This document shows positions 23,866 to 60,893 of a stretch of DNA of 64,000 bases, in pieces. The position numbers and the translations under genes are program-made. The stretch lies in the NCBI GenBank assembly GCA_004794655.1, contig SMMW01000003.1:19548501-19612500 (forward strand). The letters are read 5' to 3'. Positions within the stretch are counted from its first letter, which is position 1; every line of letters begins with the position of its first letter. This stretch comes from Marisa cornuarietis. Taxonomy: Eukaryota > Mollusca > Gastropoda > Architaenioglossa > Ampullariidae. The notes below the pieces were generated by a model, which saw only the letters and a program-made list of their open reading frames with translations, ran no database searches and was not told the origin of the DNA.

Positions 23866-23943
23866 GGGTTTTCCTAGCGGTTAACGCGTAATGAAAACCG
23901 CACACAAGGAGGATTGAAGTCAGCACGCACAGACGCTTATAAA
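23866..23943 (+). promoter_or_regulatory. Proximal promoter of LBP/BPI gene 1: TATA box and kappaB-like site
   Basis: A TATAAA at 23938-23943 inside GACGCTTATAAAC is shared by all three LBP/BPI genes 38-42 nt before the start codon, implying a very short 5' UTR. Further up, GGGTTTTCC at 23866-23874 resembles a Rel/NF-kappaB half-consensus; genes 2 and 3 carry changed versions at the same place. TATA conservation is direct; the kappaB reading is inference. Confidence 0.55.
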
Positions 23944-23979
23944 CACCATCTTGCAGTACATGTAATAATTATGCTCACC

Positions 23980-26900: not shown

Positions 26901-29271
26901 GGCAATGGCTTGACGTGGTCAGCTTTAAATGCTGGCCTCGGACTACATGCTGGCTGGAGAGTCAAGTACAAGAAAGGATGGTTTGTAAATAATGCATAAA
27001 ACTGTTCAGTATGAATTTGGTGCTTGACCTTGTGAAACTCCGTGAAATGAAAAAATTTAATTAACTGAGGAGCAATGTTTCTTTCCTAGGGTTAAGATTT
27101 CCACATCTGGGACTGTGGATGTGACGTTATCTGGCATCAATTTTGTCATCACCATTAACGTTGGTACGTTATCTTCATTATCGAGTGTTAGAGTTTGCAT
27201 TGTACCATCTCATTAGACTAAGTATCACCACCAGCGTCTATATTTGCGCAGAACTGGTGTCATTACTGATGTTGGTACAAAGTGTCATTGTCATTATCTC
27301 ATCAATGTTGGCATATAGATGTGATGAATTATTTTATATGACGCGTAAAATGGTAGTAAGTTACAATGCAATAGAGTATCTGCTGAGACCAAAGGCACTG
27401 ATCATTTTCTTTTTATACCAGGCCAAGATGCAAATGGCAGGCCCTCTATAAGTGCTGGAGGATGTCAGAGCAGTATCGGCAGTGTTTCCATCAACATTCA
27501 CGGAGACCTTTCTTTTATTCTCAATTTGTTTAAGGGAATCGTAGAGGATAAAGTCAGAGAAATCATTCCTGGAAAGTTGTGCAATTCAGTCACAAACGTG
27601 GTCAATATCAATGCAGAAAGTGAGATGCAGAAGCTGAAAGGTTGGTGAAAAAGGTTTCATAGAAGTCTTTAGCAGAGTTTAGCAGAATATATATTACACA
27701 AGCCTATGTTAAAGCGTGCTTCTTGAAAATGGATGACACTTAGATAAAAAAAAGCAAAGTGCATATTTCCTTTACTGCAGGTGAACCTTTAAGGCTAAGA
27801 CGAGTAATACATGTTACATTAATGCAGCAACATATCTCAAAGACTGCACCTCACCGGCAACTAAGGCGGTAGTCGTGCTATATCCTGGCAAAGCAGCCGG
27901 CCATGTAAACAGGTGTCACGCGCTTTCTGACATAGTAATATCATTTCATTCTATTTTTGAGAGAGAGATGGGGGAGATGGGGCAGGGGGCAGGGTACGCG
28001 AAAATTGTCCTACACTGATGTCAGCGACGGCGGCAGCAACAGCAATTTACTCATTGTGTTTAAAATGCATCGCCGTAAAAGGACGCATACGTCTTTGTTT
28101 CCTAAGTTTTGATCATCTGATGCTTAAAATATTGTATCTCCCAAACAGAATAGTTATTCGACCAGATTTAAGGAATTGGAATTTTGTAATGAATTAGACT
28201 CAGTTATCTGAAAATAGTTTTACTTTTAAAAACCTAGCGTTTATTGGGTAATAGAAAAATGTTTTCACAAGATATATTACACACACGGACCATTTATTAC
28301 CTACAGTATTAAAAACATCAGGAATACAGAATATGTTTATTCTGAATTAAACTTTTTTTTTAAAATTGAGCTTATTAAAGACTGGACCCGCTAAATAAGT
28401 TTATAGCAAACACATTAGCCTGAAAAACAGAAAGGCAACAGCGACGATTTACGTCGAAGGTTGATGTCACCCACAGCACAAGTATATTGTTGAACAGTCT
28501 GCCGTCCAGTTACCCTGCACGTCATGCAAGCCGACCGCCATCAACTGGACTGAACTGTTGAAAGTGAGGGGAGTTCACCGAACAGGGCCTATCCCTCACA
28601 ACAGCCACGTACACGTTATCTATATATAGAATTCTTGCAGGACGGTCTTCGATGTTATGGTAGTTTTGTTTGCATCCGCAACGAAATGGTCAAAGCAATC
28701 AGGCAAAGTGCTTACAGACGCAGAGGAGATCATAAAGTCATCTCTAGTCATGCAATAATTATCTTCAGCAAAAACATCTTAAACTTATGTTTTGGTCGTG
28801 AATACCGCCCCTGTACCACCCCTCATCTGACCCATACTCCACTGGTGACGGAAAGCATGTTTGAGCATTGGCTCACAAGATTTCTACGAAACGTACAAGC
28901 ACATAAGTCATACAATGGTACAATATTGGAAATGCCTGATATAAATATATGCATATTTAAAACATAATTACTTGATTTAACGCATATTGATATATTATAA
29001 TAGCAACAATAATCCACCTGCTTTGAGAAATAATTCAAAGGCGTTCTCACCCATGATATTTTGACTATATGGAAAAAAGTTATGCTGAAGAGAAATTGGT
29101 ATCAAATATATATTAATATAGGGATTCTGAGATGCTGGTTATTGTGTTGCAGTGGTCACACCCCTGTTGGGGAATCAGTTTCTCCTGGACTATCGCCTGA
29201 TCTTACCCCCATCCTTCACTTCACTTTATCTGCAGACGTACCACAAGGTCAGCCGGGGTGCAGCTGCATAG

Positions 29272-29345
<74 letters not shown>

Positions 29346-32300
29346 GGAGGGGGGAGGATCACACAGTTTTTTGTGTGCATGAAGACAATAATATTTTACA
29401 CTTTCCAGGGAGAGATTACATGGGCAGCTAACCCAAGCCCACCACCCTTCTCCCCACAGCCGATCCCATCTTCAGGGGACACCAGCAAAATGGCATATTT
29501 GTGGATTTCTGAGTATCTGCCTCAGTCTTTTGCATATGCTGCACACAACAATGGATTTCTCCGCTACAATCTTACAGGCCAAGATGTGAGTTGCAGCTGG
29601 AAGATGAGTAAAACATCTCGATGAGATTTTAAATAAGAATTATGTAGCTAAAATAAAGAACAAGAGGTACACATAATGTTATGTGTCAGTACTTTGTAAT
29701 GTGGTACAAATTGTAAATCAGTTACCAGTGATGGAGTACACAGTATATGCAAACTGCAAGTGATGTGGTGGACAATTTTGTAAGCTAAAATTAGGTGTTT
29801 GTTTGCTTATTTAGCTTCCCGGGAATGAGACTTTCTTGAATACCACCTGCACTGGATGGAGCATCTGTGTGGGCAAATTGTTTCCAGCTGTAAGTGTTTT
29901 CTCACTGCTTGTACTTGAAAAGCTGTTTCCAGCTGTATATTTCAAACGTTGAATATTGCTAGAAAGATGGGTTTCATGCTGTCCTGTCCAAAATCCTTTG
30001 TCCAGGAAACTAATATATCATGATCTGGACAGTCAAAAAGGCTATTCTTTTATTGAAAGAATGTGTGTACGTTTTAAACAATGTAGTTTAGTGCACTTGT
30101 CTGTGACACTCATTATATCTGAACTGTCTATGAGGGTAGAAATTTATAATGATGGATTTAGCTTAATAACTTCAGACCAGAAACATAATAGTTTGAATTT
30201 CCAGTCAGTGACTAGAAATTCCATCTGTCCACCATGTAGTCAATAGGTGCCAGATATATCAGGAAAGGTGAAAGGCAGCAGAAGAGAGCTGGGTGTCTTC
30301 CGTATGTTATGTACCTAAATTAAAAATGGTCAGCATTGGTAGCTCACTACCCTCAGGTTACAAAGCCTTTAACACCACCACTCCTCCTGTGTAGCATCAG
30401 TAGTTTCTGATTATTTGGGTTTGCTGATTTGCTTTGATTTAATGCATTTGTGTGCAATGTATGAATTATTAACTGTTTCTGGCAATAACTGAAGTCTTAA
30501 ATTTCATACTGACATGTTTGTTTGGGTTTGTTTTTTTTCATTTTTGAGGATAAACTGACTTAGGAATTTCAAACAGGCTGGAAATGCAATATTATTTTAA
30601 TTATAATTAAAATGATATAAAAAGTAGAAATAATGGGGTAATTAGCTGACAGTATTCAGTATTCATTTATGCTGCTTTCAGGAATGGATAGGTTTACTAG
30701 TACTAGTACTAGTACTTGTAGTCTAACCATATGTCTAACCATATAATATTTCAGCCATACAGTTTTACTGAACCACTTAGTGTGCCTTAAACACTTAAGT
30801 ATTTGTAAAGCATGTATGTGGCTTTATTTGTACTGTTACATTAAACTGCAGATTGGTGAGAAGTACCCCAACAGCCAAGTGGAACTGCGCATGAGCTCAT
30901 CTCAGATGCCAGTTGTCAAGATGATACCAGGTTCACTGGGTGCTAGCTTTACGGGGAACATTGATTTCTATGCCCATACACCGTGTGGACAAGTAGCCTA
31001 TTTACTCACCCTCAATGTGGTAAGTAATGCTTTAATTTAATTGCATTAAAGCATTGAGAGTAAAGCAAAAGACTTTATTGATTTTCAATGTGTACATGCA
31101 GAGAGTACATTTCCACCCTAACACAACACTGTTCTTTCACCCTAGCCAAATTACAGCTTGTTGCAAAATCTAAGAGTTGAATTTTCTTGTATTAAAAATA
31201 ATTTATCTTCCATGATACCATTTTCTGCAGAAGATTATTGCAGTGTTTTGACATTTTGTAAATCACCAGAATAAAATAATATATGTAACCAAATGGATCT
31301 GCAATGCATGAAGGATGGTGATCAGTTGAAGTTGTGTCAAAAGATGGATTTGCACTGCTTCCATTCCTATGGTTTGTGAACTCATTATTGTATTTTTCAA
31401 AGAGACATTCAGCAGACTATCCTATGAGCAGCAAAATATGATTCCCACCTATGTGATCTGTTTTATGACTGTATCAGTGGTGCGACAAGGAGCAGCCTGG
31501 ATTACAGTTTTTTCATTATTTGTAAAGTGCCATGAGCTTACCTACTAGGCTGGGATATGCAGCTATTTGTGTACTGTATTGTTATTATTAAGTCCAAAAC
31601 ATGATGTTGAATTACTTTTTCCCTCTGTCAACAGTCTGCCAGCATGAACTTCAGCGCTTCATTAAGCAACGAAATGTTAATGGGAAAAGTCTTGGGCACA
31701 AGGTATACTCCGTTTCCAAATGACTGAGATATGATGAATGACTTTTTAAGGCCTTCTGATCACTTCAAATAATTGAACAGTTTCTCTAGGCTTGTTATGC
31801 TGCCAAGAGGATAAATACAAGTTTTCTATTATATATCTTGTTCTGACAGGTTTAGTTCTGGTTATGACATTCCCCCCATCCCCAGAAAACAAGATATTTG
31901 TTATTTTTCTGTGTAGTTAATAGTTTGTCCTGAAAAGAGTTTTTTCAGGGAATTATTTTGACTCTATGACTGTATCTTAGAGAAACAATTTAATCATTTT
32001 GTAATATGCAAATCATGTTTTGCAGTACTGTTGTTGGTGTCCAGGCATCTGCTATTGGGCCTCTGAATGTAAGATGCTCCTCTCCCCTCTAAAGTATTCA
32101 TTTCATTTAAAATGAGTTAATTCTTTATTTTCCTCATATTTTCTTTAATGTAGTGACACATTTTTATACCTCTATATTCTCTAGTGCTGAAATCTGAGTC
32201 AACACTTCAGTATTTAAATAGTTTCACTATTCCATTATTATGCATACACTACAGTCATCTGCTTTCAGTGAAATCCAAGGACACTTCATAAAAACCTTGA

Positions 32301-33524
32301 CAGTATTTATTTTTGTGTTTGTGTGCAATAGGAAAAGGTGATCAGCACCATGGTGGATATGGCAATGATGCTGTTCATTGTGCCAAAGTTAGATGGTGAG
32401 TACATGAAACTCCAGGATTTCATGAGTTCTACTCATTACTTTGATTAATACTAAGCCCACAATCTGTAGAACATATACATATATACTCTCCTAATACTTG
32501 TTTGATATTGAAAACTACTGAAAACTCCTGACATTAATTTTAAACTGTAAGATCACTTTGACCTCAAGGACTGCAAAAGTTATAGTGTGTGGATAGCCAG
32601 AGGACCATCCAAATTGTTTTATGATCAACATGCTTAAAGGTGGAGTGAACTGAAAATGTCAACAGCAGACTCTTGCTGTAGAAGCTATAAGCCTTTCGGA
32701 AGCCATGATTTTTAGTGTACAGTTTTATGTCAGTAGAGAGATGATGATAATGATGATGATTATTATTGTTTATTTCATTATAGGTGACAGGTAAAATCTG
32801 CATACTGATGTGTGCTTTCATGCCACCAGCTTTTTCCTGTCGATATACAAATGTATCTATTTTTGTAAAACTTTATGGGTTACTTTTAAGAAAATTTGCA
32901 CTCATACACCCAGGGCAAGAAAATAAAACATGGTTTGCTAATTATTCAAACATTTTTTGTTTGGTGTTTTTTTTCAGAAGTGGGCAGAAGAGGTTTCCCC
33001 CTCCCTACAGTTGACAGTCTCAAGTTTGTCAGTTCTGAGCTTGAAATCATACAAGTAGGTATCATTGATGCTGAACGATAAGGCTGCATTGTTCTGAGCT
33101 GCAAATACACATATTAATAGTAGCATTGGCATCACTATTTACACTCATACTCATAGCTCAGATATGAAAATTATAACACCACAAATTAACACAATATTAT
33201 TTTTGAACCATTGACGGAAGAGAGCCACATCTGTCAATTCTGAGCTTAGTAGTCTTTACTGTATTAAGTGATCTGTAAATGCTCAAGGCAGGTAGACACA
33301 ATCTCACATCTAGTGAAACTGGGTGGAACAGCAAAACAGTCTTTTGAAAACAAAATAAAATAACATAGAAATTACCGTGTAACAAAATTACTTTCTATTG
33401 ATGAGGAAGGGATGTAGGAAATAAATATTTTGAGCTCCAGTTGGGCAGACTGGTTAACAAGAACTATTTGTTGCAGGGTGCATTTTTGGTTGCAACTGAT
33501 GTGCAGTACACTTCCAGAAGATGA
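23980..33524 (+). CDS. LBP/BPI-family protein, gene 1 of the cluster (14 exons, 484 aa)
   Basis: Exons: 23980-24091, 25224-25323, 26846-26980, 27090-27163, 27422-27640, 29153-29247, 29409-29585, 29815-29889, 30852-31019, 31635-31702, 32026-32068, 32332-32395, 32978-33054, 33477-33524 (TGA 33522-33524). Every junction keeps frame, giving 484 residues; human BPI and LBP have 487 and 481. A hydrophobic signal peptide (about 1-20) precedes APEPGFQARIT. The N-terminal BPI domain contains the conserved cysteine pair at about 155 and 194 (39 apart, as in the human BPI disulfide). A proline-rich linker follows at about 253-265 (PSPPPFSPQPIPS), then the C-terminal BPI domain with Cys at about 316, 322 and 374. 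Family role: secreted binding of LPS and other lipids, antibacterial or opsonic. I start at the ATG at 23980 because it aligns with genes 2 and 3; an in-frame ATG at 23971 would add three residues. The frame is intact. Confidence 0.92.
24319..24379. repeat. 15-bp perfect inverted repeat in intron 1 of LBP/BPI gene 1
   Basis: ccacttaaaagtagc (24319-24333) and its exact reverse complement gctacttttaagtgg (24365-24379), separated by 31 bp. Possibly the terminal repeats of a tiny MITE or a transposon end; no target duplication was identified. Confidence 0.7.
25483..26050 (+). mobile_element. RTE-like LINE fragment in intron 2 of LBP/BPI gene 1
   Basis: The first 30 codons from 25489 (NNQIDFFLLPRRFKSSINKA) align with NQIDYILLPRRFKSSINRAK of the intact element at the right edge. 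Later similarity continues through the linker (ALRKEKK-type, KAANHLRER) to about 26050. It is multiply frameshifted and stands apart from the 23596 fragment because exons 1 and 2 of the gene intervene. Confidence 0.7.
27853..27925 (-). mobile_element. Truncated SINE (3' part), intron 5 of gene 1
   Basis: accggcaactaaggcggtag and the following catatcctggcaaagcagcc resemble gccagcaactaaggctatgtcacggcaaggcagc of the SINE at 12885-13062. The tRNA-like head is absent. Confidence 0.5.
29275..29342. repeat. (GT)n microsatellite, intron 6 of LBP/BPI gene 1
   Basis: About 34 uninterrupted GT units starting 28 bp after the exon 6 donor. Seen directly; likely polymorphic. Confidence 0.95.
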
Positions 33525-37239: not shown

Positions 37240-39708
37240 CCGACGAGTGTGTAGTGTGGGTGCGATGAATAATTGATAAAATGATCTCATCATGTCTAAA
37301 GTCTAAATGAATCTCTATCATCGATTCAGAATCGTTCGCTTTGCTTACGCACCCTTAATTTGTTCAGACTTTGCCTTTCAGTGAATTTGTGACCTTATAA
37401 ATTAAACATCCAGAAGTCTCCATGCGTCAAAAAAAAAATGGCGAACAACAAATATCTGGACATTTCCCGGATGTACTCTCGTTTGGATCCGACAACCCAG
37501 GAATGAATATAACTTTTTGTTTACTCTTTACTTTGCGTTGAAATTTGACACAGTTTTTAAAATGTTCTCTTTTAACTCACCTGACTAGACGTTCATTCAG
37601 CCGTGTACGGATGTTTATCCAAAGCAAATTTAAAGGCTAGCGTTTAGGTTTTTCTCAGAGGCCTGTTTTCTGTGGAAAAAGCACGGGGTATATTTTTTGC
37701 GTGATGTGGTGTATTTGGGGTAGATTAAGAGAAAGTAGCATGTCTTACACACGGTGACCCTCACACTCAAGGTTTACATCAGGTTTTCAGTAAGCACCAG
37801 AGACTTATGGTGTTTGAAGTTTTAATCGCTCTTCTCAAGGCAAAAACTATTTATCCCAGTGCACCTGGGATATTAATTATTAATTATATTAATTATATTA
37901 ATGTACTGCACTGGACAGTTATAAGACTAGAATTGCTATAGGCAAGACGGCACATCTGATCTTTTAATTATTATTAATAATAATAAGATGATAATGACGA
38001 CGACGATTACGACAAATTGTGTCTTTTAGATCGAGGAAGAGTGTCCGACGTAAAAAAAAGAAAAGAATTCCAAAGATGATGTTGAACGATAACCATGAAA
38101 TTTGAGTTTGAATTGCTTTTTCTGAAGAAGCCTCGTATAAGACAAGAATCGGAGAGATCGAAAGGGGATATAGACTGAAATGAGCTAAGACAAGTAGGCG
38201 ATAACAAACCTGTGACCTTTTTATATCAGATGCATACCGCTTTATATTTAATTCTGTCTGACACAGAAACTAAATGAAGCTACTTCAAGCCATACATACA
38301 CAACTGACTGGTAGGAATTGCAGAGCGGTTATGCTAGTCTGTTAGTACTCGTCGGGGTGAACAACTATAGACAGCTCCTTGTGAAACTGATGGATAGAAT
38401 CCTAAAGTATTTAGCTTTATTTTACTTGGTAAATTGACGCACGTAACAGCTTCGCTCTTCTTGACAGAAACCAAACTTTTACCGTCCATAGGGGGGTGGT
38501 CACAAGCGATGCTCGAGGCGTCTTTCTCGCCCGACATGGACTTAAAGTAGAGTTGAGAACATAACCAAGGGAAGAGAATGCTGTGGAGAAATGGCTTCTG
38601 TCAGGGTTAGGGCTGCCTGTGTTCTCCCTTTAATAATAATAATAATAACAACAACAACAGCAATAATTAAAAAATAAAAAGAGAAAACGAGAAAGAAGAA
38701 GAGAAGGATACACAGCGCAAATGAAACAAAGACAGCTGAATTTTTAACTTCAGTTTTCTTGTTCTCGTTTCCCGTTATTATTCGTTCCTTATTTTTAAAG
38801 CGGGGATAATCATATTTAACATTTTCAGTTTCTTTCCACTGGTGACTGACATACGATACTCTCCCTGGGTTTGGGTACAATGGTCTTACTTTACGAACAA
38901 CGCAAATGGGTATCAATTTACACCCGTGACAGTGCCCATTCACCATCTGCAAAAGCCTCTTCTTGCTCCAGGTTAATAGCAGACTCATTTTGCATACAAT
39001 ACGTCAGGAATGATTTCCGTCCAATATAAGAAATTGTCTAAATTTGCCAATATGGGACTTGTATCCGATCAAGTTTTGAGAAAGCGGCTGCCACGGTTTT
39101 CTGCAGTCGTCAACTTCTTGGTATGAGAAGTTGTATCTTCTCATACACCACCGAGTCCACAACGAATTCTTTTTGCAGTTAATCATAAGACTTTATTATT
39201 CAGTTTACTTTACACACGAACCTACATCTCTAATGTGTCTGGTTGCGTAATGCAGCAAGTTCATGTTTGTTTGTGCGATCGCTATGGTTAATCTACTAGA
39301 TGGTTGAATGCTAGCTGTAAATTGACTCATTTCTGACAATGTAAATTACTTTCTCTAATTTCTGATTGATAATAAATTGTTCATTTAATTTTAAACTCGG
39401 TCTTTGTTGGGAAGACTCACTGTTGTGCATGTTCACAACATAAACAAACATGTTTGTGGCCTCGCATCGATTACTTGACTTCCTGGTGTTTAGGCTTCTG
39501 ACGGTCACGCAGTTTGTCCTGTTCTTCAAGGACAGCGTACGTTGTTAAGACTAGGATGCGGCTAGACCCCACCCAGAACATTTGCACACGGATGTGGGAA
39601 GCAGTCACGTACGAGGGTTTTACTATCCTGAAAAAGGATGTTTACAATGCACTATGCACAGGCAGACGCTTATAAACCCCAGCTCGCAGTACAAGTAATC
39701 TGTTCACC
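37240..39708 (+). repeat. Upstream part of tandem duplication unit, copy 1
   Basis: Matches 55365-59848 in order. Shared blocks include the agtgtgtagtg...atgaataattg start, the catttaaacatcc...gtctccatg block, gtactgcactggacagt, cttgtgaaactgatggatagaatcct, the gcggctgccacggttttctgcagtcgt block and the whole last 550 bp before the ATG. Copy 2 is longer because of insertions. No gene was seen inside. Confidence 0.8.
39615..39676 (+). promoter_or_regulatory. Proximal promoter of LBP/BPI gene 2
   Basis: TATAAA at 39671-39676 in the shared GACGCTTATAAACCCC context, 38 nt before the ATG. The site equivalent to the gene 1 kappaB-like motif reads GGGTTTTAC (39615-39623), weakening the resemblance. 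Upstream, cagtcacgtacga...atcctgaaaaaggatgtt is shared with gene 3. Confidence 0.55.
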
Positions 39709-40520
39709 ATGTCACAGCCGAAGTTTCTCCTTTTTGTAAGCTGTTACCTGCTGTCGTCTGATCAGGCGGCAACCAATCCTGGATTTCAAGTAAGAATTAC
39801 CAAGCGAGGCCTGGATTACGGTAAGTGACTGGGTGATTAAGCACAGCTTTTATGTAAGTTTGCAAATATGAACTGGGGAGTATAGCGTCGGTCTTGTTTT
39901 CCCCGCCGTCCCATTTCTACAGTAAGTAACATCCATATAAAGGCGTTATAATTTATAATAAATATAATATTTAACGGAAATGGTTAAAGGTTAGGTCGTC
40001 AACATTCAGCAACAACACAGCAATTTTCAAAAACGCTTGCGCTTTCAACTGCTAACATTTGCTGTACCACCTTTACCATTCACGCTTTGTTTAGCATGAT
40101 GAAGCGTAAAGTGCAGGTGATTAGTTGCTCACTTAATTGATGAGATGTTCTTCGGCCGCGTCAGGTTCTGAACAGGTGAGCCATGGTGGCTTCATTTTTC
40201 AAAAACTATTATTTCTTTTTTTTACGATTTTGAGTTTGAGGTGTAATGGAGTGCTACAAATGGAATCTTTAGTGCGCGACGTGCTGATACTGTCCATATG
40301 GTCTTTAAAGACCTGCAATAGTCAGTTTTGGGTACAAAAAGCTTTAACAAGAAATAAACAATGCAGAAAATTTTACCACATTTCTGTAAGAAACTAATTG
40401 AAGCTTAATCTTATTTTCGACTCCGGCTAGCCTTTGAGAAGAAGGAAACTTAAAATTATCGAAACTGGATGCAACTGTAGAAGTAGGAAAACACAACACA
40501 TAGTCCTCTTTCTCTTTCTC

Positions 40521-40590
<70 letters not shown>

Positions 40591-43500
40591 TCACGCGCAC
40601 GCACGCACACAGAGGTAGGGAGCGAGAGAGGGTGAATGAGAAGAGTCTAACGTGGCTACAACACTGAACCGAGTCCAAGGATAATAAGCAGGCTCTCTCT
40701 CATGTGTTGTTTCCTTCCCAGCCGGGAGGTTACCAGGGTACATTGTTTTTAACGTTTGAGACCCAATCTTTACATCAGTACTATAAATCTGTTCAGCTTC
40801 TTGTCAGTGAACAGAACTTTGAACTATGTTCTGGGGGCAGACTAGCACAAAGATGGGAAGAATATCGACATAAATGTTGGCATAAAAATTCATGCAGTAC
40901 TTATGCTACGTTGTTATTATCATTGGATGTTAGCATATATTTTTAATAAGGGTTCCTTTTTATATACAGTTAGTAGTTGACTTAAGACCTATGCGACTTT
41001 TGACTTTACGACCACCACTATGAATGACATGTCTCACCTGTTGCAGAATCACTATACAGTATTTCTCTGTTCCTGTTACTTGATGCCTTTTGTTTTCTGT
41101 TTCGTCCTCAGTACTGTCGTTTTCTTTCGTCCCCTTTGTTCTGTGTCTACTTAGTCCACGTCTCTTCCTCGTTTTAAGCGCTAAGAGCATGCTCTCTATG
41201 AGTGTGAATATGCGCTATAAAAATCTTCACTATTATTATTATTATTATTATTTCTGACCATGAATGGAAAATTGTGATAAAATAGGACAAATCTGATAAT
41301 AAAAATGAGCCAATAAAATGAAATAAGGAACAAAGAAATTGTTTCTAAAATACCATATGGCTTAAAGATGATTACAATATGATTCCCCAGCATAATATAC
41401 TGATGGCAATTTAATATGCCCGACTTACGACCAGATCAAGTTACGACCGGTTTGTCGTAACCTAACGCGGTCGTAGGTCGACGACTACCTGTATTACAGG
41501 CTGACTCAAAACTGAGCCATTTTGAGCTACACTTTCTGACGTTTATTACATGTTATATTACAGCAAACGTTCTGACGTTTATTATATGTCATGTTACAGC
41601 AAACGAGAATGCTTTGAGAACCCTGGTGGCCGAGCTTCCGTCGAGAAACATCCCTGATCAGTCTGGCAGTTCTGGTATTCTTGGATATTCTCTTTCTCAG
41701 TAAGAGACAATAACAACGATTACAAATATCAGCTTCGATAAGTATGCGTCACGATAAACGAAAATTAATATTGAACATACAGTAAAATAAATATTGAACA
41801 TACGATACAATTAAAATTGAACATACAATACAATTAATATTGAAATACAATAATGCCTTTATGAATGATATTCATCAGTTATAAAGAAAACCCCGTTGTT
41901 ATATAAATTACATCAATGCATTACAACATTTACAAGAGTAATCTTTCTATACTCTAAAAAAGTTTGTCGTTATAGTATGCAAATACTCGTGTTTCGTTTT
42001 TTAAAGGATTCGAATACCAAGCGTGCAGGCACCTAGCAGCACAATCACCCTCGGTACTGGCAATGGCTTGACGTGGTCAGCTTCAAATGTTGGCCTCACT
42101 GTACAAGCTAGCTGGAGAGTCAGGACCACGGGATGGTTAGTAAATATTAATTAACAGTAACATTAGAACTCTTTGGTATGCTGTTGGCTCTAGACCTTTG
42201 GCCAAAATGGTATTTCCTTATTAATGGCCGAACAATGTTTCTTGCGTAGGATTAAGGTTTCCACATCTGGGACTGTAGAGGCGACGTTATCTGGCATCGA
42301 TTTTGGTATCACAGTCAACGTTGGTAAGTTGTCATCAATGTATAGTGTTAAAATGCTGTCATTAATAAAGTGTAATCGGTGTTAGCATTGAGTCATCTCA
42401 ACAGAGCTAATACTACCATCCGTTCCTGTGTTTCTGCAGGACCGATGTCATTATTAATGTTATTATAGTGCGAGTTTTCATTATTGGTAATGCCACTTTC
42501 AGTAATATTGATCATATTGAATATACTGTCATCAGCCATGACTAACGTTATACTGACAAAATGCGATAAGCTAGGCAGAATTAAAAACAATATTTAATCA
42601 ACAGTGTGACAGAGCGTATGGTGATATATATATATATATATTGTTACACATCAACAGGCCCAAGTTACTTTTCTTTTTATCATCAACAGTAACTTTTTAA
42701 AAATTGAAATTATCATTACATTTTGCTTTGTATCATCAGGCCAAGACGCAAATGGCAGACCATCCATAAGCTCTGCAGGATGTCGAAGCAGCATCCGCAG
42801 TGTTTCCTTGCGCATACGTGGAACCCTAGCTTTTGTCCTCAATTTGTTTAAGAGACTGATAGAGAGAAAAGTCAGAGACATAATTCCTGGACTGCTGTGC
42901 AATGAAGTCACAAAACTGGTCAATGTAAATGCACAAACAGAGATACAGAAACTAAAAGGTTTGTTATAAACGCTTCATAAAACAAGGATTCAGTAGATTT
43001 AGTAGATTTAGAAGTTTACCAGGATACATTATTACAAGAATCTGACAAAACATGTCTCTTGGAAGTGAGAGATCTGAGATGAAAATGAAAGTACAAGTGC
43101 AACTTTAATGATTACAAGCGCAAAAATCTCCTCCAAGATGATGACACATTCATACGATAATTTGGGGAGGATCGTGGTTAGTGCGCTCAATGTATGAAGC
43201 GTACGTTTCGTTGTTTCAAGAACACCTCCGGCCTTTGGCTGAAAACATCTCCCTACTACACACCCAGTAGAAATGGGTAGCTGACATAGCAGAGAAGGTA
43301 AAGGCAGCAGGAGGAGATACTTGGAGATATTGTGCCCCTATGCTATTTGACTCAATCTTCTCTGATGCCATTTTATCTTCTTTTTGAGAAGTGAGGGGAG
43401 GGAATGAAGAAAGGTACACGTGGCTTGAACTAAATTATAGAACGGGTGACACATGCGAGTCTGTGAAGGTGGTAGCCACAGCTAGAACAATGTTCTGTTA

Positions 43501-46500
43501 AATGATGCGTTGCCGAAACATGCAGCTTACTTAAGGGACTTCACAAAGCACACCAGTTACTTCCAGGGACTGTATTTATGGACACCGGTAATTTACTCAT
43601 ACGTAAAATTGCGCTAATGTGGATAGGTAACCAGCTGATTAAGCTACCCCGACACGCAAACTCCCGATTCACGAACCACCGAAGAGGGAAATTACCTAAT
43701 CTGTCAGTACAGAGTAAATTCCCGGAAAACGGGAGGCATTACTCTGGTGTTTTTGGATCAGAGAGTGAGGTGTAAAACAACAAAAACAAGGAACATTAAA
43801 GTCTAAAAAGAAAGCAAGAAGCTAGGGAAAGTTATTATTAAGACCAAATGATGTTCCTCGAGCACGAATTAGATAAAAAAAATTCATTCGGAAACAAATG
43901 ACCAGCAGAGAAAACCGAACGGCTCCAAGTTGAATGCAACGCTGCTTCATTTTTATGGCGTCTGCTTTTCTCAGATTAAAAGTCAAATGTAAAAGATATT
44001 TACCGAAGAGTTAAGTACCATAGGTCCAGTTTATTTATTAGGTCTTGAAAGATTTCAGTGGTCGTCTCGGTTGAACTACGTCAATCACGATCTCTGCAAT
44101 ATTCACCCTAGATGGGAAAATATCGAAAGGAACTCCTCTGATGAAATATCGGCTGGTAAAACGATTTGGGTAGCCTATCCTGAAGCCATGACTACGGGGT
44201 CTGAGCCAGTCTCCGGTTAGGCGATCTACACGGCTCGTATAGGGTAGCAGGGTTCATATTCATAAAGCTCGACAGGGCTCATGTTCACGAAGCACGTTAG
44301 GCGCCATTTTTTTTACTACGGGAGTGGGGTCGGATAGGGATAATTAAACACTTTTTTTGTCATCTGGACAACACACAATCAAAGGTCCATATATTTTATT
44401 CCGATGCCGGCAAGGAACTCTCCAACTCTCAGGCACTGAGCAAACACATTGCCTCTCTTCAATAAAACTCATCTTTGCTTTCAGAGTGGGACGTTCGTCC
44501 CGTCTCTGCCCTCTCTCCAACTCGTTCCCTCTTCCCGCCTGCTGACCCTCGATCTGATCATCATCTCTAACTTCTATCCACTGTTACTATGCGGTTTCCT
44601 CCCATCTCTCCATGCACACGCCCTCGGCCACCGCTACGGTGAGTCCTCTTACCGCATCCCACTGACATGCTCATCTACCCCGGCTTCCTCCGTAATCATT
44701 CAGCCGGTCAAGGAACGGCAATAATGTCCTGGACTGCCAAGGTCTGTCTGTGTGCATGTATGGGCGTATTTGCTTGTATTTGTATGTGTGCATCGTCTCA
44801 TCCTACCTTACTAACATCTTTATGAAATACATGCTAATAATACATTGAATTTGCATAGCGCCATATCCCGGTCCCATGAACAGAGTTATGGCGCTTTACA
44901 ATATATATATATATATATATTAGGCTAAGGAGAAGACTGCATCAGATATAGTAATACTTAGATTTTGAGATGCTGATTATTGTGTTGCAGTCACCACACC
45001 CCTGTTGGGGGATCGTTTTCTCCTGGACTACCGCCTGATCTCTCCCCCATCCTTCACTTCACTTTATCTGCAGACATACCACAAGGTCAGTTTTTAATGA
45101 TATATAAAATCTGGACAAAAACAAAAACTGCAGATGGTTTTATGTAGAGTGTATACAAGCAATCCGTGAAGCACGAAGGTGTTCGAGGAAATTTAGATAA
45201 ACAGACAATGTTGGTGACAGTGGAAAATACGTAGTAAACACATCGGTGTCTAAACAGTACGAAATAAAGAAAATCAGTATAAAGGAGATTTGTTGAGAAG
45301 GCTCTCAACACTAGCAACCCACAAGTTTTGGAAGGAAGCAAAACCAGTCTGCAAACAGTTTAACCCTTTAAATATTACAGACAACATATGTTTTTCAAGG
45401 AAGCTTAGAGGAGGGTGAATGGGATAATGAGACCTTGGTAGATGTAATATGTCTACCAGGGATTGTAGATTATCCAGTTACCTCATCTATAGCAATTAGA
45501 GTTATAAAGTACTTAAAACGAAATAAGGCTCCTGTACCTGATGGAATACATGCAGAAATGTTAAAAGCCTTTTAGGCTATATACTAGTGTTTCTATGGAA
45601 GTTATTTTGACAATATAGAGAGTACCCAAAAGCTTGGAGGGATGCAACAATGATCCGAATTTTTAAAACAGGGAACAGAGATAGCCCAGACAATTATAGC
45701 AGGTTTTAACTAATTAGTATTGAAAGTAAAATGTTTGCACATATTCTAAACTTGAGATAAAGTGGGCAGAGGAAATCCAGAAGTGACTGACAATGACATT
45801 CATAGCATCTAACTTATTCTAAATGTATAATACATGTCCTTTTACTGTTGTTCGCGGATGATATATTTGCATCATACTCTATTGCTGGCGTCTGAAAACA
45901 GACTATTTAAAATGAATATTTTGATGACCGTGAACTTTTGTCACCAGCAAATCCTTAGGAAGGCATCCCGTATCCTCTCTATTTCTGATCATGTGTTGAC
46001 ATGTGAGTTCTCACTTTTGCGGTCTTGGCTGTAGGTACGCGATGCTTGTATGCAAAACCAATTGTCACCGCAATTCATTCATTCCACGTGCCATTCACCT
46101 GATTAACTCTACTGGCCGTGATCTTGTACTAACCTGAGGTGACCTCAGGTCACCAACTGTATCTACTGTTGCTGGAAATGTGTGTGTGTGTGTGTGTGCG
46201 TGCGCGCGCGCTCGCTCGCGAGAAATTAATTCATTATGTATATGTATTATCTCTTTTGGAACAGCTTTCTTATAGGTAGTTTTGCGACGTCATAACAAAA
46301 ATGGCTTACCTGTAGGCGGAGCTATGCAAATTAGTGACGTCACTATTACGTCACTCATCTTCTGCTCTCTCTCCTTGCTAAACTCCCCTGATATCGTCTC
46401 CTTCATCTTCTTCGAATCCTTCCTCCAATTATTCCGAGAAATAATATCCAGAAATGAACAAAATTTTTCCTGAAGTCGCCTTCCCTATCTTCTTCGAATC

Positions 46501-49500
46501 CTTCCTCCACTTTTTCCGAGAAATAATATCCAAAAATATACAGAAGTCTTCGACTAAACTCAACACAAACAACCTTAATTGTCACTTCTGCATCCATCCT
46601 AAACTTCTTTCTGCTATATTTTCCAGACTCTGCACCTCTAAACCTTTCCTTGAATTCCACAATTGCACCACAAATTTTCGCAAAATTTCCACGCACACTC
46701 GCCATCTTCAATCCTCTCGAATTTCTATCGTCCGCTCACATCAAATCAAAACTTTTCCCGCGCCAAATATCACATGACTAAAACCAGCCAGTAATTTAAC
46801 GACTAAAACCAGCCAATAATTTAACACAACTCCATGTCAATCACCATCACGTCACTCGACTAGTCCTCAACATTTGTCCTCTACAATAAAACCTACCCCA
46901 CACCCATAACCCTAACCCAAACCCTAACCCCACTTCATAAATCACACACAACACCAACCAATGCCCAACCTCACACCCCTCTCAAATATCGATCCTACCC
47001 GGTCTCCCCTCCCACAAAATAGCACAGGCCGCCGTGACCTAGTAAAACCACCTATATGAAAGTTCTGCCTCTCTTTTATATCCTGTATATGTATGAGCAC
47101 TATCTGGCATTGTTCTTGAGGATGAATTAAGTTGTATTGTATAACCAGTCAGAGTCATGGTATAACAGCCAAGAAAGGATAGATGTTGTTAACATCCAAA
47201 AGTATGTCTCAGCTTTTACACCCAAACTCCCACTCTTTCAAACTGTGGAGGATCTCACAGACAAAGCCAAACTTAGATCCTGTTGGCGAATGCCTGTGAA
47301 AATTCCTGTCTTCTGGAACCATTTTAGTCGGTCTACTGTCAACACGACTCGAATGAGACTGCTCTGGTCAAGGGTGGTGAACAACTTGCTGTTTGCTTTT
47401 GACAACGGTCAAATATCAGTCCTGTGACCATCAATATCGACAAGTGGAAATGTTTAGATGTGAAATATATTAATGTTTGAAAAATTGTTGATGGTCTTCA
47501 GCAGACTGGCATACACCAAGTGCTAAGAATTTTGCCATCAGGTGCACCCCACCAGAAAAGACTCCTCATAAAAAGCTATCACTTTTAGACACCCTTGGAA
47601 GCTTCTTGATAGCTCCCTGATAATTTCTTTGCTCAGAATATAAATGACAGACATATTTTCAAATAAAGAGCGTTTGAAGAAAATAATATTTTACATTTTC
47701 CAGGGGGAGATTACATGGGCAGCCAGCCCAAGCCCACCACCCTTCTCCCCACAGCCAATCCCATCATCAGAAGACAGCAGCAAAATGGCATACTTGTGGA
47801 TTGCTGAGTATCTGCCTCAGTCTTTAGCATACGCTGCACAGAGAAATGGATTTTTGCGCTACAATCTTACTGGCCAAAATGTGAGTTGCAGCTGGAAAAT
47901 GAAGGCATGTCAGTAAAAACACCCAAATGAGCGTTTAACTAAGAATGATGTAGCCAAAAGATATGGAAATGAGAAGTTAAGCATAGAATTATTTAACTGA
48001 TGTAAAAAGGTAGGAACATACTGTGTGATAGGCTGGTCTCCACTGAAGTGGTGCAGATCATGGCATGTGCCAGTAACTTGTCATGTGGTACAAATTGCAA
48101 ACCAGTGACCAGCGCTGTGATACACAACACAGTTTATGCAAATTACAAGTATTGTAGTAGATGTCTTTTTAACTAAAGTGTGTGTTAATGTATTTATTTA
48201 GCTTCAACCTGGGAACAAGACTTTCTTGGATGCCACATGCAGTGGCTTGAGGTTCTGTATCGGCGAGCTGTTTCCAGCTGTAAGTGATTTCTCGATGCTT
48301 GTAGATGCAGCCTTCTAATGTTCTCTGAATGATGCTGACACAATCATGTGCTTATATCAACCATTTCAGCTATGAGTATATCTATACCATGTACTGGTAC
48401 CCCCTTAAATATGAAACTTTTGTTTAGAAAATCTGTAAGAAAGAAAAATTCTTGAAAGTAAAGTGAATACTTTGTTGATATTAACATAGTATCTGGATGG
48501 GTTTAGAGTTGTAGTTGTGGCAATAGTGTGCTAACTGCAGATGAGAACTTTATGGATTTGACACTGACTTGAGTTGGTAACTGGAGGCTTCCTCTCTTTA
48601 ATCAGGAAAGGTAAGATAACACCGAAAAGGTAGTGCTCTGCCTTGCACATCATACATAAGACAGTGGCTGCTTGGTTTGTTTGCTATGATATTTGTGGAA
48701 ACTGATTTACGGTTTTTAGATATGCTGGCGGGTTTTAATTAAAAACAAGCAGATATAATGAAGAATTGAGTTTCAGTATTTGGAGTTTACGATGCGTTCA
48801 GTAATGGATCTATTTTAAATACCACTTAACAATGGAGTGAAGCCAAGTTGTGTTTCAGTTATATAGCATGCTTCACCCACATAGTGTGTCTCAGTGTTTA
48901 GTACTTGTATTCATGTGAAGTGTCAAAATTCATATGCATCTCTCTAAAAATAATCACAATCTGAATAACATGGTTGACATTGTACTATAGCATTTAACTG
49001 CCCACAGATTGGTGAGAAGTACCCCAACAGCAAGGTGGAGCTGCGCATGAGTTCATCTCAGATGCCTGTTGTCAAGATGACATCAGGTTCACTGGGTGCT
49101 AGCTTTACAGGGAACATTGATTTCTATGCCCACACACCTAGTGGACAAGTCGCCTTTTTATTCAATCTTAATGTTGTAAGTAAAACGTTTAATGCACTAC
49201 AAATAAAAGTTTGCACTTTGTTTGTTACATATAGATAATAACTAAAACATGTATCACCTTCAGCAAGATTTTAACATGTTTGAAGGGAATAGGGGTTTGT
49301 TTTTGAGTTAAAACCCATGAAAACAAGTACACCGCATGTTCTGACTTATTCAGCATGAAATGAAAGTGTATGATCATCACATTTTCAGCTATTGTGCATT
49401 GAAACAAACTACCTTCCATTTTACATTTGTAGCTTAAATTCAAATTATACTAGCTTAAAAAATTCAAATGTGCACAAAAGGACTATTATATCCCATTGTA

Positions 49501-52390
49501 ACATAAAAATGAGAATGTCATTGACTTATTATGATGAAATAGCACACTTATTTTATTTAATAGACATTTGCTATTTCAATAACTTGATTATCATCCTTGT
49601 AAGTATCAATATAGTTAACAATGATTTCCTTTATGCCATGCATGTTATTTTAATTCACAAGATTTTGAAAAGCAGAAGTCATTGTCACAAATTGTTTTCA
49701 CAAAAGAAACATGTTTAAACAGATTTTTTCTGAAAATAAAATTTGCGCTTGTTATTTAAGTTATCCCAAGAAACATATTGCTGAATTGACATTTCATTCA
49801 ATCAACAGTCTGCCAGCATGGATTTCAGTGCTTCACTAAGCAATGATTTGGTAATGGGGAAAATCTTAAGCACAAGGTAAAGGTTCCCAGTCACTTAATC
49901 CCCGACACTTAATTCCCTAGACTTTCAATCTGTAAGCACTTAATCCCCAGACACTTAATCCTAAAAATGAAATTTCAACTATAAAAATTATGAAGTCAGT
50001 GAAAAATTTAATTCAAATAATTATTTTTATATAAACATCACAATAAGTTTGACAATTAAAAATAAGTTTGACAATTAAAATAAATATTGAAAAACATTAA
50101 TATTTAAATCATGCCATTAACTTCAACGTTATTTCAACATCTATGACATCAGTTAAAGTTCATGTGAGCTATTAAATTCAATGTTCTTCAACAATATGAT
50201 ATGAAAATTGTTCTTAAGTGTTTGTGAGGTAATTGTTGTTAATCAATATGACAGGTAAGCTAATGATCGGAGGTACAGAAGACAATCCATTGCCTCACAT
50301 CACTGTACAATGTGCTAATTCTCCTGGCCAATACAGCGTATTTCCTCTGTGGACGTTTTTCTGTGCTTGCGCATGACTGTAGAACAGATGCTTTGTGTAG
50401 CTGACAATAATCCTTACGTAGACCATCAAGGAATGTCCACATTGTTGGATGGTGACAGGAGAAGAGAGATTAGAGGCCTCATACATTTCTCTATACAGGT
50501 TTAAGTGTGTGGGGATGACGTACTCTAAGTCAATGGTTTGACAGAAGCATTACACAATGGTTTATAAAGGATTAAGTGTCTGTGGATTAAGTGCCTAGGG
50601 ATTAAGTGTCTGGGGATTAAGTGACCAGACACCCAAGGTAAATCTTCTGGGCAAGCTGTTGAGATGTGAAAATAATTTTTGTAAGGTCTCCTATCACTCT
50701 TTGAATGAATAATAACAATTGTTGTATCATATACTTTGCATACTGACAGGCTGACATGTATGACTTGTCCCTCTTGAACAATATGCCGCCTGCTGCTTAT
50801 TTCAGTTGTCTAAGTATATTGTTGAATAGCACCTACCACTATTGACATTGACCAGTTTTTAATTGTAAGACCACTTTGACCTCAATGTAACTATAACTCT
50901 TCAAGGATAAAGCATCATCATAATAAACTTAAATGCAAATCTTCTTCTACAGGATCAATGTTGGTGTCCAAACATCTGCTATCGGGCCTTTGGACGTAAG
51001 ATGATTCTGTCTAGTTTTGTTTAAAATGAGTTACACATGCCAAGTCTCACACGTTTTGCAGATTTCTTACAGATGCTTCTCCTTTCTCATCTTATGGCAT
51101 AGTGCAAATTTCTTATGCAATTTTTGAATTTTTCAAATATGAGTAATAATTCAAACATCTTTTTTAACCAATCAGCTGTTTACATACATGAGTATTCAAT
51201 CTTCTTGCTGATTCTTTCTTTGATCTTTGAAGTTTCTGTGACTAACAGGTTGCTAATTGGAATAAATATATGATGAGAGATTTGAAAGTTTTCTGGCAGT
51301 TAAAAAAAATGCAAAGGCTGAATTTGATTTATGTAATATTTGTTTCTGACATTTTTATCTCAAATCCTGATCTTTGTGTTCATAGGCGAGTAACATCAAC
51401 ACTGTGGTACAGTTAGCAATGGAGATGTTTGTTGTGCCACAGTTAAATGGTAAGCATGTTTGTGAAACTTCTCGCTTTTCTTAGGTATGCTCATCTGTAG
51501 ATTATGTTTATTTATTCAATAAATCTTTAATAATGCTAACTCTTACATAATGCACAAAATCAACATGCAAAGCCACTGCATACCTTTGTGCTTTGTGGGT
51601 CACCCAAATGGCTGTGGGACCATGGCTTGACATTTTTTTCACCATATATTTTCACCAATGTGCTTAAAGTGGGGTGGACTAAGAACATCAACAGCATATT
51701 CTTATGGTAGGAACTTTTGAGAATCATGGTTGCAGCATAAAATGTTACATAAAATGTATTTTTCAGAAGTGGGCAGTAGAGGTTTCCCCCTTCCTAAAGT
51801 TGACAACCTGAAGTTTGTCAACTCTCGGCTTGAAATCTTGCAGGTAGGTATCACTGATGCTAAGGAATAAGATTGATTTGTTTTGAGCTGCAAATACACG
51901 ATCGAGTTATTGGTAAGTCATTTCATTAGCTGATACTGAGAGATCAGACATGACAATTCTAAAATTGCAAATTTATGCAATACTTTTTTTTCCTATCCAG
52001 TGATAACACAGTGGCATTTGTCCATTCTGAGCTTATTACTATTTAACAGTCATTGTTGATAGTGATGAGGCTCAAAGTTGTCAATGCTCAAGACAAGAAT
52101 ACACACTCTTAAGTCCAGTAAAACTGTGGGTGAGATTATTACAGAGTGTCATTTGAGTTTTCTCTCATTGACCAATTGGTGTTCACCATGCAGCAATAAT
52201 GACAGAAGAGGATAATAGATATTTTTAAAATCTTACTCAGAATAGTGTACTTCTATATATTTGTAAGTATATAGTACATTTTATAATACTTGTATGTCAT
52301 GAAATTCAAGTTTTTTTTGGATAAACTGGTGTTCATCTTGTGTTCCAGGGAGCGATTATGGTTGCAACTGATGTACAGTATGCTGTCTGA
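39709..52390 (+). CDS. LBP/BPI-family protein, gene 2 of the cluster (14 exons, 481 aa)
   Basis: Exons: 39709-39820, 41600-41699, 42007-42135, 42250-42323, 42740-42958, 44991-45085, 47704-47880, 48202-48279, 49008-49175, 49809-49876, 50953-50995, 51386-51449, 51767-51843, 52349-52390 (TGA). Phases are identical to gene 1 throughout; exon 3 is two codons shorter, exon 8 one longer, exon 14 two shorter. The product has 481 residues, the length of human LBP. The signal peptide region MSQPKFLLFVSCYLL is followed by an unusual Asp (SSDQA) where gene 3 has Val. The BPI disulfide cysteines in exon 5 (AGCRS, LLCNE), the proline-rich linker in exon 7 and the paired cysteines in exon 8 are kept; the extra gene 1 cysteine in exon 9 is Ser here. 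A MULE-like element interrupts the start of intron 10, and the exon 2 acceptor is tandemly duplicated. The coding frame is intact. Confidence 0.92.
40523..40584. repeat. (CA)n microsatellite, intron 1 of LBP/BPI gene 2
   Basis: About 31 CA units followed by imperfect cacgca units to about 40608. The equivalent place in gene 3 has a (CT)n run with cacgcacgcacg. Confidence 0.95.
41175..41250 (-). repeat. (TAA)n-anchored hairpin repeat, reverse orientation
   Basis: aagcgctaagagcatgctct followed by tgtgaatatgcgctataaaaatcttcac and (tat)n. This is the reverse complement of the repeat inside the L2-like LINE at 22541-22640, nearly identical over about 60 bp. It lies in intron 1 of LBP/BPI gene 2. 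Confidence 0.75.
41535..41606 (+). repeat. 36-bp tandem duplication covering the exon 2 splice acceptor of gene 2
   Basis: Two adjacent 36-bp units starting tctgacgtttatta (41535-41570 and 41571-41606) each contain an acceptor ending TTACAG|CAAACG. The downstream one matches the exon start in gene 1. Using the upstream one would add exactly 12 codons without a stop. Confidence 0.85.
44835..44920 (+). repeat. Short hairpin repeat plus (AT)n
   Basis: taataatacattgaatttgc then atagcgccat, a spacer, atggcgctttacaatatata and an AT run. Inverted GGCGC/GCGCC halves suggest a relative of the (TAA)n-anchored family. It lies in intron 5 of LBP/BPI gene 2. Confidence 0.5.
45390..45760 (+). mobile_element. 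Degraded LINE RT fragment, intron 6 of gene 2
   Basis: Across frames the plus strand reads YLKRNKAPVPDGIHAEMLKA, then YPKAWRDATMIRIFKTGNRD and SPDNYS. This corresponds to the KAPGPDGI and W..A.I..I.K.G..D.P.NYR boxes of LINE reverse transcriptases. It is interrupted by stops; the clade is not resolved. Confidence 0.65.
46385..46530. repeat. Two-copy tandem repeat (about 75 bp unit)
   Basis: atcttcttcgaatccttcct...ttccgagaaataatatcca occurs at about 46404-46451 and again at about 46488-46532 with few changes. It lies in intron 6 of LBP/BPI gene 2. Confidence 0.7.
47137..47427 (+). other. Unidentified 96-codon ORF in intron 6 of gene 2
   Basis: ATG to TGA open frame with protein-like composition (for example KLRSCWRMPVKIPVFW and LLWSRVVNNLLFAFDN). 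It has no recognised domain. It is on the sense strand of LBP/BPI gene 2 but absent from gene 1. A transposon or retrocopy remnant is more likely than a host gene. Confidence 0.3.
49882..50633. mobile_element. MULE-like transposon (752 bp) at the exon 10 donor of LBP/BPI gene 2
   Basis: Flanked by perfect 9-bp direct repeats caaggtaaa (49873-49881 and 50634-50642), the duplication size typical of Mutator-like elements. The ends are inverted repeats starting GGT and built of CACTTAATCCCC-type subunits: about four copies at the left end (49890-49965), mirrored as GGATTAAGTG units at the right end (50570-50625). Inside, the minus strand near 50442-50260 reads HHPTMWTFLDGLRKDY, similar to the HPNIWxFIDxLKxEQ box near the C terminus of MULE transposases. 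Too short to be autonomous. Confidence 0.75.
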
Positions 52391-58965: not shown

Positions 58966-59745
58966 TGTAAAGCTCGAGTCAAACGTTGAGGTAAGGTTGT
59001 CAAAGAGCATAAAATATGCCACTGCCCATGCTCATTTAAAGACATGCTTCCAAAGCACGTCGTCTCCATCTTTTCTCAGGATAACGCGGGAAGTAGTCCA
59101 GCCACCCGGTTAATGATATGAGAAGTTGTATCTACTTATACGAGTCCACAACGAATTATTTTTGCAGTTAATCGTGAGACTTTATTATTCAATAAACTGT
59201 ACACACGAACGTACGTAAGTTTTCTGGTTGCATAATGCAGCCCGTTCATGCTTGTTTGTGCGTGCGCTATGGTTAATCTACTAGCTGGTTAAATGCTAGC
59301 TTTAAATTGACTCATTTCTGACAACGTATGATTTCTGGTTGAAAATAAATTCTTTATTTAATTTTAAACTGGGTCTTTGTTGGGAAGATTCACTCTTCTG
59401 CAGGTTCACACCATAAACTACAAAGAAGAAAAACACTTGTCCTCATACTTCCTCGATTCCAGAATTGACGACTGTATGCTGCCAGCATTTATCATGCATG
59501 TGTGTTCTTTGTGTAAAGTACTTTGAGTTCACATTAATGGTGGAGAAAGGTGATATAGAAATAGTTATCATTATTATTATAAATAAACGTGTTTGTGGCC
59601 TCGCACCAGTCACTTGACCTTCAGGTGTTTGGGCGTCTGACGGCCGCGCAATTTCTTCAAGAACAGAGCGTAGGTTGTTTAGACTAAGAAGATGCTAAAA
59701 CCCACCTCGAACATTGGCACACGGATGTGGGTAGTAGTCACGTAC

Positions 59746-59815
59746 GAAGGTTTTCCTATCCTGAAAAAGGATGTTGACAATGTACACAAGGGTATTATCC
59801 TCAGACGCTTATAAA
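59746..59815 (+). promoter_or_regulatory. Proximal promoter of LBP/BPI gene 3
   Basis: TATAAA at 59810-59815 in the shared GACGCTTATAAAC context, 39 nt before the ATG. The kappaB-like position reads AAGGTTTTCC (59747-59756). The sequence is nearly identical to the gene 2 promoter. Confidence 0.5.
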
Positions 59816-59848
59816 CCCCCAGGTCGGAGTACAAGTAATCTGTTCACC

Positions 59849-59960
59849 ATGTCACAGCCGAAGTTTCTCCTTTTTGTAAGCTGTTACCTGCTGTCGTCTG
59901 TTCAGGCTGCAACCGAGCCTGGATTTCAAGTAAGAATTACCAAGCGAGGCCTGGATTACG
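59849..59960 (+). CDS. LBP/BPI-family protein, gene 3, exon 1 only
   Basis: 112-bp first coding exon, with the same length and phase as in genes 1 and 2, ending at a perfect GTAAGT donor. It encodes a clean signal peptide (MSQPKFLLFVSCYLL, then SSVQA) and the start of the mature protein (ATEPGFQVRIT, KRGLDY). It is nearly identical to gene 2 exon 1 except for the Val/Asp and Glu/Asn changes. Intron 1 resembles that of gene 2 to about 60890 and then holds a LINE up to the window end. Exons 2-14 are not in the window, so whether the gene is complete cannot be told. Confidence 0.8.
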
Positions 59961-60893
59961 GTAAGTGACGGGTGATTAAGCACAGCTTCTATGTAAACTT
60001 GCAAATATGAACTGGGGAGTATAGCGTCAGTCTTGTTTTCCCCGTCGTCCCATTTCTACAGTAAGTAACATCCATATAAAGGTGTTATAATATATATATA
60101 TATATATACATAATATAATGGAAATGGTTAAAACTAAAGTCGTCAATATTCAGCAGCAACACAACAATATCCATACGCTTGCGCTTTCGACTGCTAATAT
60201 TTTCTGTAGCACCTTCACCAGTCTCGCTTTCTTTAGCATGCTGAAACGTAAAGTGCAGGTGATTAGCTGCTCACTAAATTGATGAGGTGTTCGGCCGCGA
60301 CAGGTTCTGAAACAGATGAGTCGTGGAGTTTTTATTTCTCGAATACTGTTTTTTTTTTCCTCTTTTTTTGCGATTTTGAGTTTGAAACGTAATGGAGTGC
60401 TACGAATGGAATCTTTAGAGCGCTACATTCTGATACTGTCCATATGGTGTTTAAAGACCTGCAATAGTCAGTCTTCTGTGCAAAAAGTTTCAACAAGAAA
60501 TAAAAAATGTAGTAAATTGTCTTTCCAGCCTTAAAGGCCAAGCTGAATTCTAAATTATTATGACCGTTTTTAAAGCCTGAGTAAAAAAAACCAAACTCTT
60601 TCCTGTTCGCGAGGCAGAAATTCCTGAGTTTAGAACTTACAAGGACAAGACCAAGTGAAGTTAAAAAGTATACTGATTTCTCCTCATTGGGGTCCAAGCT
60701 ACGGTAGTCCTTAGTTAAAACTTAGTCCGTGTGCATTTCTCAAAAAAAAATTAAATTTCGCCACATTTTTGAAAGAAACTAATGGAAGCTGTATGTTCTG
60801 AGATTAAATTCATTTTTGACTTGGGCCAGCCTTAGAGGAGAAGAAAGAAACAATTATCGAAACTGGATCCAACTGTGGAAGTATGAAAACATT

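Follow-up and report, generated by a model that had tools for sequence, protein, structure and literature searches.

Our analysis confirmed that a transposon is inserted exactly on the splice donor of exon 10 of a BPI/LBP-like gene in Marisa cornuarietis, and that an earlier note on the same 64,000-nucleotide stretch of DNA (the window) described this insertion correctly. Direct observations cover the transposon and its family, the kinship of its transposase, the target duplication, the empty site and an unbroken reading frame. We consider it very probable that, after this insertion of a MULE on the exon 10 donor, the upstream of the two donor copies is the one mainly used and the protein is unchanged.

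The nine bases CAAGGTAAA were found at both 49873-49881 and 50634-50642, with 752 bp (49882-50633) between the two copies. Since the bases adjoining the copies are unlike (A and C before them, G and T after them), the duplication is exactly 9 bp long, and the inserted sequence totals 761 bases (the 752-bp element and one 9-bp copy). The duplication had been claimed to span the exon 10 donor on both sides, and this was borne out: both copies are present, with donor 1 starting at 49877 and donor 2 at 50638. To control for chance, every pair of identical 9-mers in the window with a spacing of 120-3000 bp (1717 pairs) was ranked by the inverted match of the 25 bases inside it. The 49873/50634 pair ranked first of the 1717 pairs (18/25 bases), followed by a pair at a TAA microsatellite (15/25). 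The features of the insertion are as follows, a slash marking the exon end.
49873 to 49881, plus strand: left target-site duplication CAAGGTAAA with donor 1, AAG/GTAAAG (sequence, donor scoring).
50634 to 50642, plus strand: right target-site duplication CAAGGTAAA with donor 2, ancestral AAG/GTAAAT (same sequence in copy C).
49882 to 50633, minus strand: 752-bp non-autonomous MULE, its transposase remnant reading on the minus strand (sequence, 9-mer control, family ends, tblastn).

The host gene, copy B of a tandem array, was modelled from its splice sites and open frame.
39709 to 52390, plus strand: BPI/LBP-like gene copy B, 14 exons, 481 amino acids, start to stop codon (splice-site gene model, open frame, Pfam, homologues).
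49809 to 49876, plus strand: exon 10 of copy B, 68 bp (gene model, Pomacea homologue; counterparts in copies A and C aligned).
50953 to 50995, plus strand: exon 11 of copy B (gene model).

Both LBP/BPI/CETP domains cover the full length of the copy B protein (PF01273 at residues 34-199, 3.1e-25; PF02886 at 242-479, 9.4e-41), and the protein resembles the solved chain 1ewf, named BPI (4.7e-50). A BPI-like protein of Pomacea canaliculata shares 84% identity with copy B over the full length, matching at 338 of 406 residues in exons 1-10 and at 65 of 75 residues in exons 11-14. By these likenesses the gene is BPI/LBP-like and its product resembles an antibacterial defence protein. The frame is open in all 14 exons and, with splicing from 49876 to 50953, the 481-residue frame runs unbroken across the element, which agrees with the claim that two donors flank the element and that the coding sequence is intact if donor 1 is used.

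The window contains other mobile sequences. A stretch of about 786 bp in intron 6 of copy B (about 46271-47056) has short inverted ends, TATAGGTAGTTTTGC and, as reverse complement, TATAGGTGGTTTTAC, and is perhaps another non-autonomous DNA transposon. Non-LTR retrotransposon remnants with endonuclease-like and reverse transcriptase domains (PF03372, PF00078) were seen at 5644-8229 (minus strand) and 21894-22457 (plus strand).

At least four BPI/LBP-like gene copies form the tandem array: A (23930-33258), B (39709-52390), C and D. Copy C starts at 59849 in the window and runs on into the adjoining contig stretches L059-L061; D begins beyond copy C, and the sequence covered ends before its exon 10. 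Around exon 1 of copies B and C, 39603-40372 and 59736-60518 are 86% identical.

The earlier note had proposed a search for the empty site in orthologues, and the site was found in paralogues. In copy C, whose exon 10 lies 23.6 kb downstream of that of copy B on the same contig, the exon 10/intron 10 region aligns with copy B when the two flanks of the element are joined; it reads GGCACAAG/GTAAATCTTTTGGCC, the boundary holding a single CAAGGTAAA and no element. Intron 10 of copy A, upstream of copy B, is likewise empty; it is 323 bp long, and intron 10 of copy B minus the 761 inserted bases is 315 bp long.
31703 to 32025, plus strand: intron 10 of paralogue A, without the element; exon 10 ends CACAAG/GTATAC (sequence comparison).

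All 14 exons of copy B were matched gaplessly in copy C, four of the matches being a few bases short at an edge. Comparison of B and C over 471 codons gave a dS of 0.118, a dN of 0.039 and a dN/dS of 0.33, and copy C has no stop. Judged by this comparison, B and C are close sister copies, and the simplest reading is that the insertion into copy B came after the two split.

Analysis of the element itself revealed terminal inverted repeats, with 18 of 25 outer bases matching, a perfect inner inverted repeat of 25 bp and 49-bp arms at 84% identity. The inner ends are inverted, GGTTCCCAGTCACTTAATCCCC on the left facing GGTGTCTGGTCACTTAATCCCC, the reverse complement of the right. The ends are also of the FoldBack type: Tandem Repeats Finder identified mutually inverted 15-bp tandem units, with 5.1 copies on the left and 3.7 on the right. 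The arms fold into a long hairpin, and the RNA fold of the region has a z-score of -7.4 (20 shuffles).
49882 to 49966, plus strand: left end, type B2 GGTTCCCAGTCACTTAATCC, an array of about five 15-bp units (family ends, tandem repeat analysis).
50567 to 50633, minus strand: right end, type A GGTGTCTGGTCACTTAATCC (as reverse complement), an array of about four 15-bp units (family ends, tandem repeat analysis).

A perfect 19-bp tandem duplication lies inside the transposon at 50042-50079, with AATAAA beside it at 50079; the AATAAA belongs to a stretch that 18 of 34 aligned relatives lack. Over 49700-50800 the sole Rfam match was SNORD110 at 49778-49843, outside the element and at chance level (E 0.8). 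The end repeat as an exact pattern had no match in IMG/VR or in the prokaryote genome collection, and a literature search with its letters returned no transposon paper, judged by title or abstract start, among the matches listed.

A genome search for relatives gave 1517 first-look candidates, 40 of which were scored; of the 39 places other than the element itself, 38 were fetched with flanks, the place at a contig end (C145:586) being left out. Three end types were derived from a first reading of these 38 relatives. An end pair with a 9-bp duplication (at most one mismatch) was present in 20 of them, 14 exactly, although the ends of one of them (L043) are poor; a further 15 relatives have an end pair without a good duplication and three have no end pair. 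An exact pattern search gave 12 matches: the window copy, two places already among the relatives and nine new ones, four of which have a 9-bp duplication (two exact) and five do not. Together, 24 of 47 relatives combine family ends with a 9-bp duplication that has at most one mismatch, and in 16 of these the duplication is exact. Because the end types had been taken from the same relatives, a control was run in which the compared 9-mers were moved outward by 100 combinations of 10-57 bp; on average 0.04 of the 47 places then had a duplication, and at most two did. The copy in the window is of the B2...A type and its duplication is exact, which places the family ends at 49882 and 50633. The earlier note had suggested a search for full-length MULE relatives; relatives with ends corresponding to these positions and a 9-bp duplication were found at 24 of 47 places.

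The description of the element as MULE-like was upheld by transposase sequence in the family and in the window copy. Pfam was searched with ten open pieces from relatives at a threshold of 0.01. The MULE domain PF10551 was found in L025 at 3.5e-11, above the gathering score, this relative lying between exact duplications, and in L012 at 5.7e-6, just under the gathering score; the other eight pieces gave nothing at that threshold. A protein search with the L025 piece returned 16 relatives, 14 with PF10551, one with a FLYWCH finger and one without a domain, while a PDB search with the same piece gave chance matches only (E above 0.1). One of these 16 proteins, P0025, has matches in 21 of the 38 fetched relatives, and all transposase pieces seen in the relatives are broken. 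The window copy retains a remnant.
50410 to 50478, minus strand: 23-residue remnant of the C-terminal part of a MULE transposase (tblastn, P0025 residues 175-197, 82.6% identity, E 2.3e-10).

MULE target duplications are 8-11 bp, mostly 9 bp, long, and the one here is an exact 9 bp. From the MULE domain in L025 and the 23-residue remnant, we infer that the element is an internally deleted, non-autonomous MULE derivative, oriented opposite to the gene.

Its end structure closely resembles that of Tm1, a Mutator/FoldBack family of root-knot nematodes. According to the available part of the Tm1 report (PMC3169594), shared characters are 9-bp duplications, unlike short motifs at the outer ends, tandem-unit ends (units of about 14 bp in Tm1), short non-autonomous members beside rare carriers of a MULE transposase and the lack of a target consensus. 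The two differ, on the same part of that report, in their unit and end sequences and in the host, a snail here; furthermore, the snail element has no histone hairpin (none by Rfam over 49700-50800), and about half of the snail relatives keep transposase pieces (21 of 38 fetched). The part seen of Dupeyron et al. 2019 (PMC6446971) describes Phantom, with 8-10-bp duplications and a FLYWCH finger in some members, and lists mollusc MULE groups. The snail family shares with these a MULE transposase domain and a duplication length within the 8-10-bp range, and it may belong to Phantom or to a mollusc MULE group (same part of PMC6446971). The FLYWCH domain occurs at 4.5e-13 in P0040, a related database protein with a 58% match to L025 over 53 residues; the domain had no Pfam match, even at E 10, in the L014 and L023 pieces, the two family fragments scanned for it. 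Rehavkus, which the same part of PMC6446971 lists from arthropods and annelids and describes as carrying a PHD finger, shares the 9-bp duplications and a repeated sequence near an end, whereas the snail relatives match PF10551 and the scanned pieces, which are fragments, contain no PHD finger.

We propose that an internally deleted, non-autonomous MULE landed where exon 10 meets intron 10 in one of the tandem BPI/LBP-like genes. A MULE transposase would have made a 9-bp staggered cut across CAAG/GTAAA, and gap filling would have left a whole donor with the last exon bases on both sides. The upstream donor, after 49876, would now be the working one, leaving the length of exon 10 unchanged, and the ancestral donor (donor 2) would be stranded inside the intron. 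Splicing from 49876 to 50953 would remove the element within intron 10, grown from 315 to 1076 bp, with the protein unchanged. Donor 1 is thus probably the one mainly used, and the insertion is probably about neutral.

Donors were scored with a consensus matrix, and the U1 pairing energy was calculated beside it. Donor 1 (AAG/GTAAAG) scores 3.46 and donor 2 (AAG/GTAAAT, as in copy C) 4.66, both with a pairing energy of -6.8 kcal/mol; donor 1 is slightly lower because its +6 base is the G of the element and not T. Across the 13 modelled donors of copy B, among them donor 1, the matrix scores run from -0.16 to 6.26. Within the element lies a stronger site, which the earlier note does not mention.
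50252 to 50260, plus strand: element-borne strong 5' splice site CAG/GTAAGC, last exon-like base 50254 (donor scoring, family conservation).

This donor (7.35, -12.3 kcal/mol) exceeds donors 1 and 2 and, by the matrix, all 13 modelled donors, and only six sites in both strands of the window score as high. Of all the results, it weighs most against a harmless insertion. The near-consensus 5' splice site CAGGTAAGCTA (50252-50262) is unchanged in 26 of the 37 relatives covering it. An acceptor-like site before 50499 would, with donor 2, frame a cassette at 50499-50637. The element-borne donor, this acceptor-like site, the AATAAA and the hairpin could cause some mis-splicing.

An unlikely alternative, though the most serious one, is that the insertion damages copy B: the 50254 donor or donor 2 (50637) would often win, the protein would stop after residue 407 and the copy would decay, sheltered by the others. 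The strength of the 50254 donor relative to donor 1 (3.46 and -6.8 kcal/mol) is in keeping with this, as are the AATAAA at 50079 in the element and the existence of sister genes. Read-through past donor 1 (49876) gives AGG TAA, an immediate stop that ends the protein after residue 407, and both alternative donors keep this TAA. However, all 14 exons are in open frame, and neither B nor C showed a disabling change in the codons compared. Furthermore, use of the 50254 donor would make exon 10 446 bp long, and exon definition favours the short old exon, hence donor 1. Selection since the insertion is not demonstrable from the changes between B and C in exons 11-14, which are too few (three synonymous and five non-synonymous in 71 codons). 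The immediate stop also bears on the suggestion that the duplication could create an alternative exon end: a second donor is indeed present, but a harmless isoform is not to be expected from it.

A quite improbable variant is a two-way splice switch, in which the hairpin would bring the two identical donors close to each other and, with the 50254 donor and the cassette at 50499-50637, the gene yields both the full protein and a regulated form stopping at the exon 10 boundary. A further idea, that the right copy (AAG/GTAAAT) serves recursive splicing as a zero-length exon, was judged unlikely: 7 of the 16 bases upstream of its AG are pyrimidines and the junction reads AAG, compared with 8-13 of 16 at the 13 modelled acceptors of the gene.

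Among the duplicated bases of the 24 relatives with clear duplications, none (0/24, both strands) reached the score of donor 1, so the landing on a donor looks like chance. A preference of the transposon for splice donors or AG/GT sites, which would make the position a family property, is very improbable: only the window copy agrees with it, whereas the best donor score among the 24 virtual empty sites is 1.9 (4.7 for the site in the window) and the base composition counted over 20 duplications is mixed, with much A and T. In addition, about 0.7% of 9-bp placements in the gene would keep a donor on both sides (a hand estimate: 13 donors x 7 placements / 12,682 bp), so that a large family should yield a few donor-keeping insertions by chance. 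Such insertions would be the exon-edge insertions most likely to survive.

The available part of PMC9860276 describes introners, inserted DNA transposons that leave the RNA because the target duplication supplies a splice site. The snail insertion resembles them in that the duplicated target bases hold a splice site usable for removing the transposon from RNA; it differs from that account in that the intron pre-existed, that the acceptor is the old one and that the family is not recurrent at splice sites (24 clear-duplication relatives). That the element created intron 10 on insertion, with splice sites from the duplication, is an extremely remote prospect: the duplicated bases do include a donor, a feature of some introners (same part of PMC9860276), but the empty sites in copies A and C refute this reading, the intron predating the element, and about 310 bp of old intron lie downstream of the element. 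An assembly artefact or chance repeats can practically be dismissed, even in a draft genome of 572 contigs (534 Mb), against a family whose other copies in the genome show matching ends and duplications, and an empty site in sister copies.

Literature searches returned no prior case of an existing donor duplicated and kept by a target duplication, judged by titles and abstract starts among the matches listed. In their available parts, PMC9860276, PMC5802833, PMC7789003 and PMC6593561 describe exonised MITEs and introners using duplicated bases, and those parts contain no existing donor duplicated and kept. This result leaves room for a published case. That a target duplication can supply a splice site is already known from introners (PMC9860276, available part); here the principle preserves an old intron. 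The insertion exemplifies a known kind well and its position is instructive, but its mechanism is not new.

The insertion is a clean natural illustration of how a splice site can survive the arrival of a DNA transposon when the target duplication is long. Copies B and C, on the same contig, constitute a matched pair for asking which of two near-identical donors wins and what effect a resident strong donor has. The analysis adds a description of a MULE family whose ends are of the FoldBack type, from an apple-snail-like genome, and the family-borne donor CAGGTAAGCTA could redirect splicing where relatives sit in genes in the same orientation.
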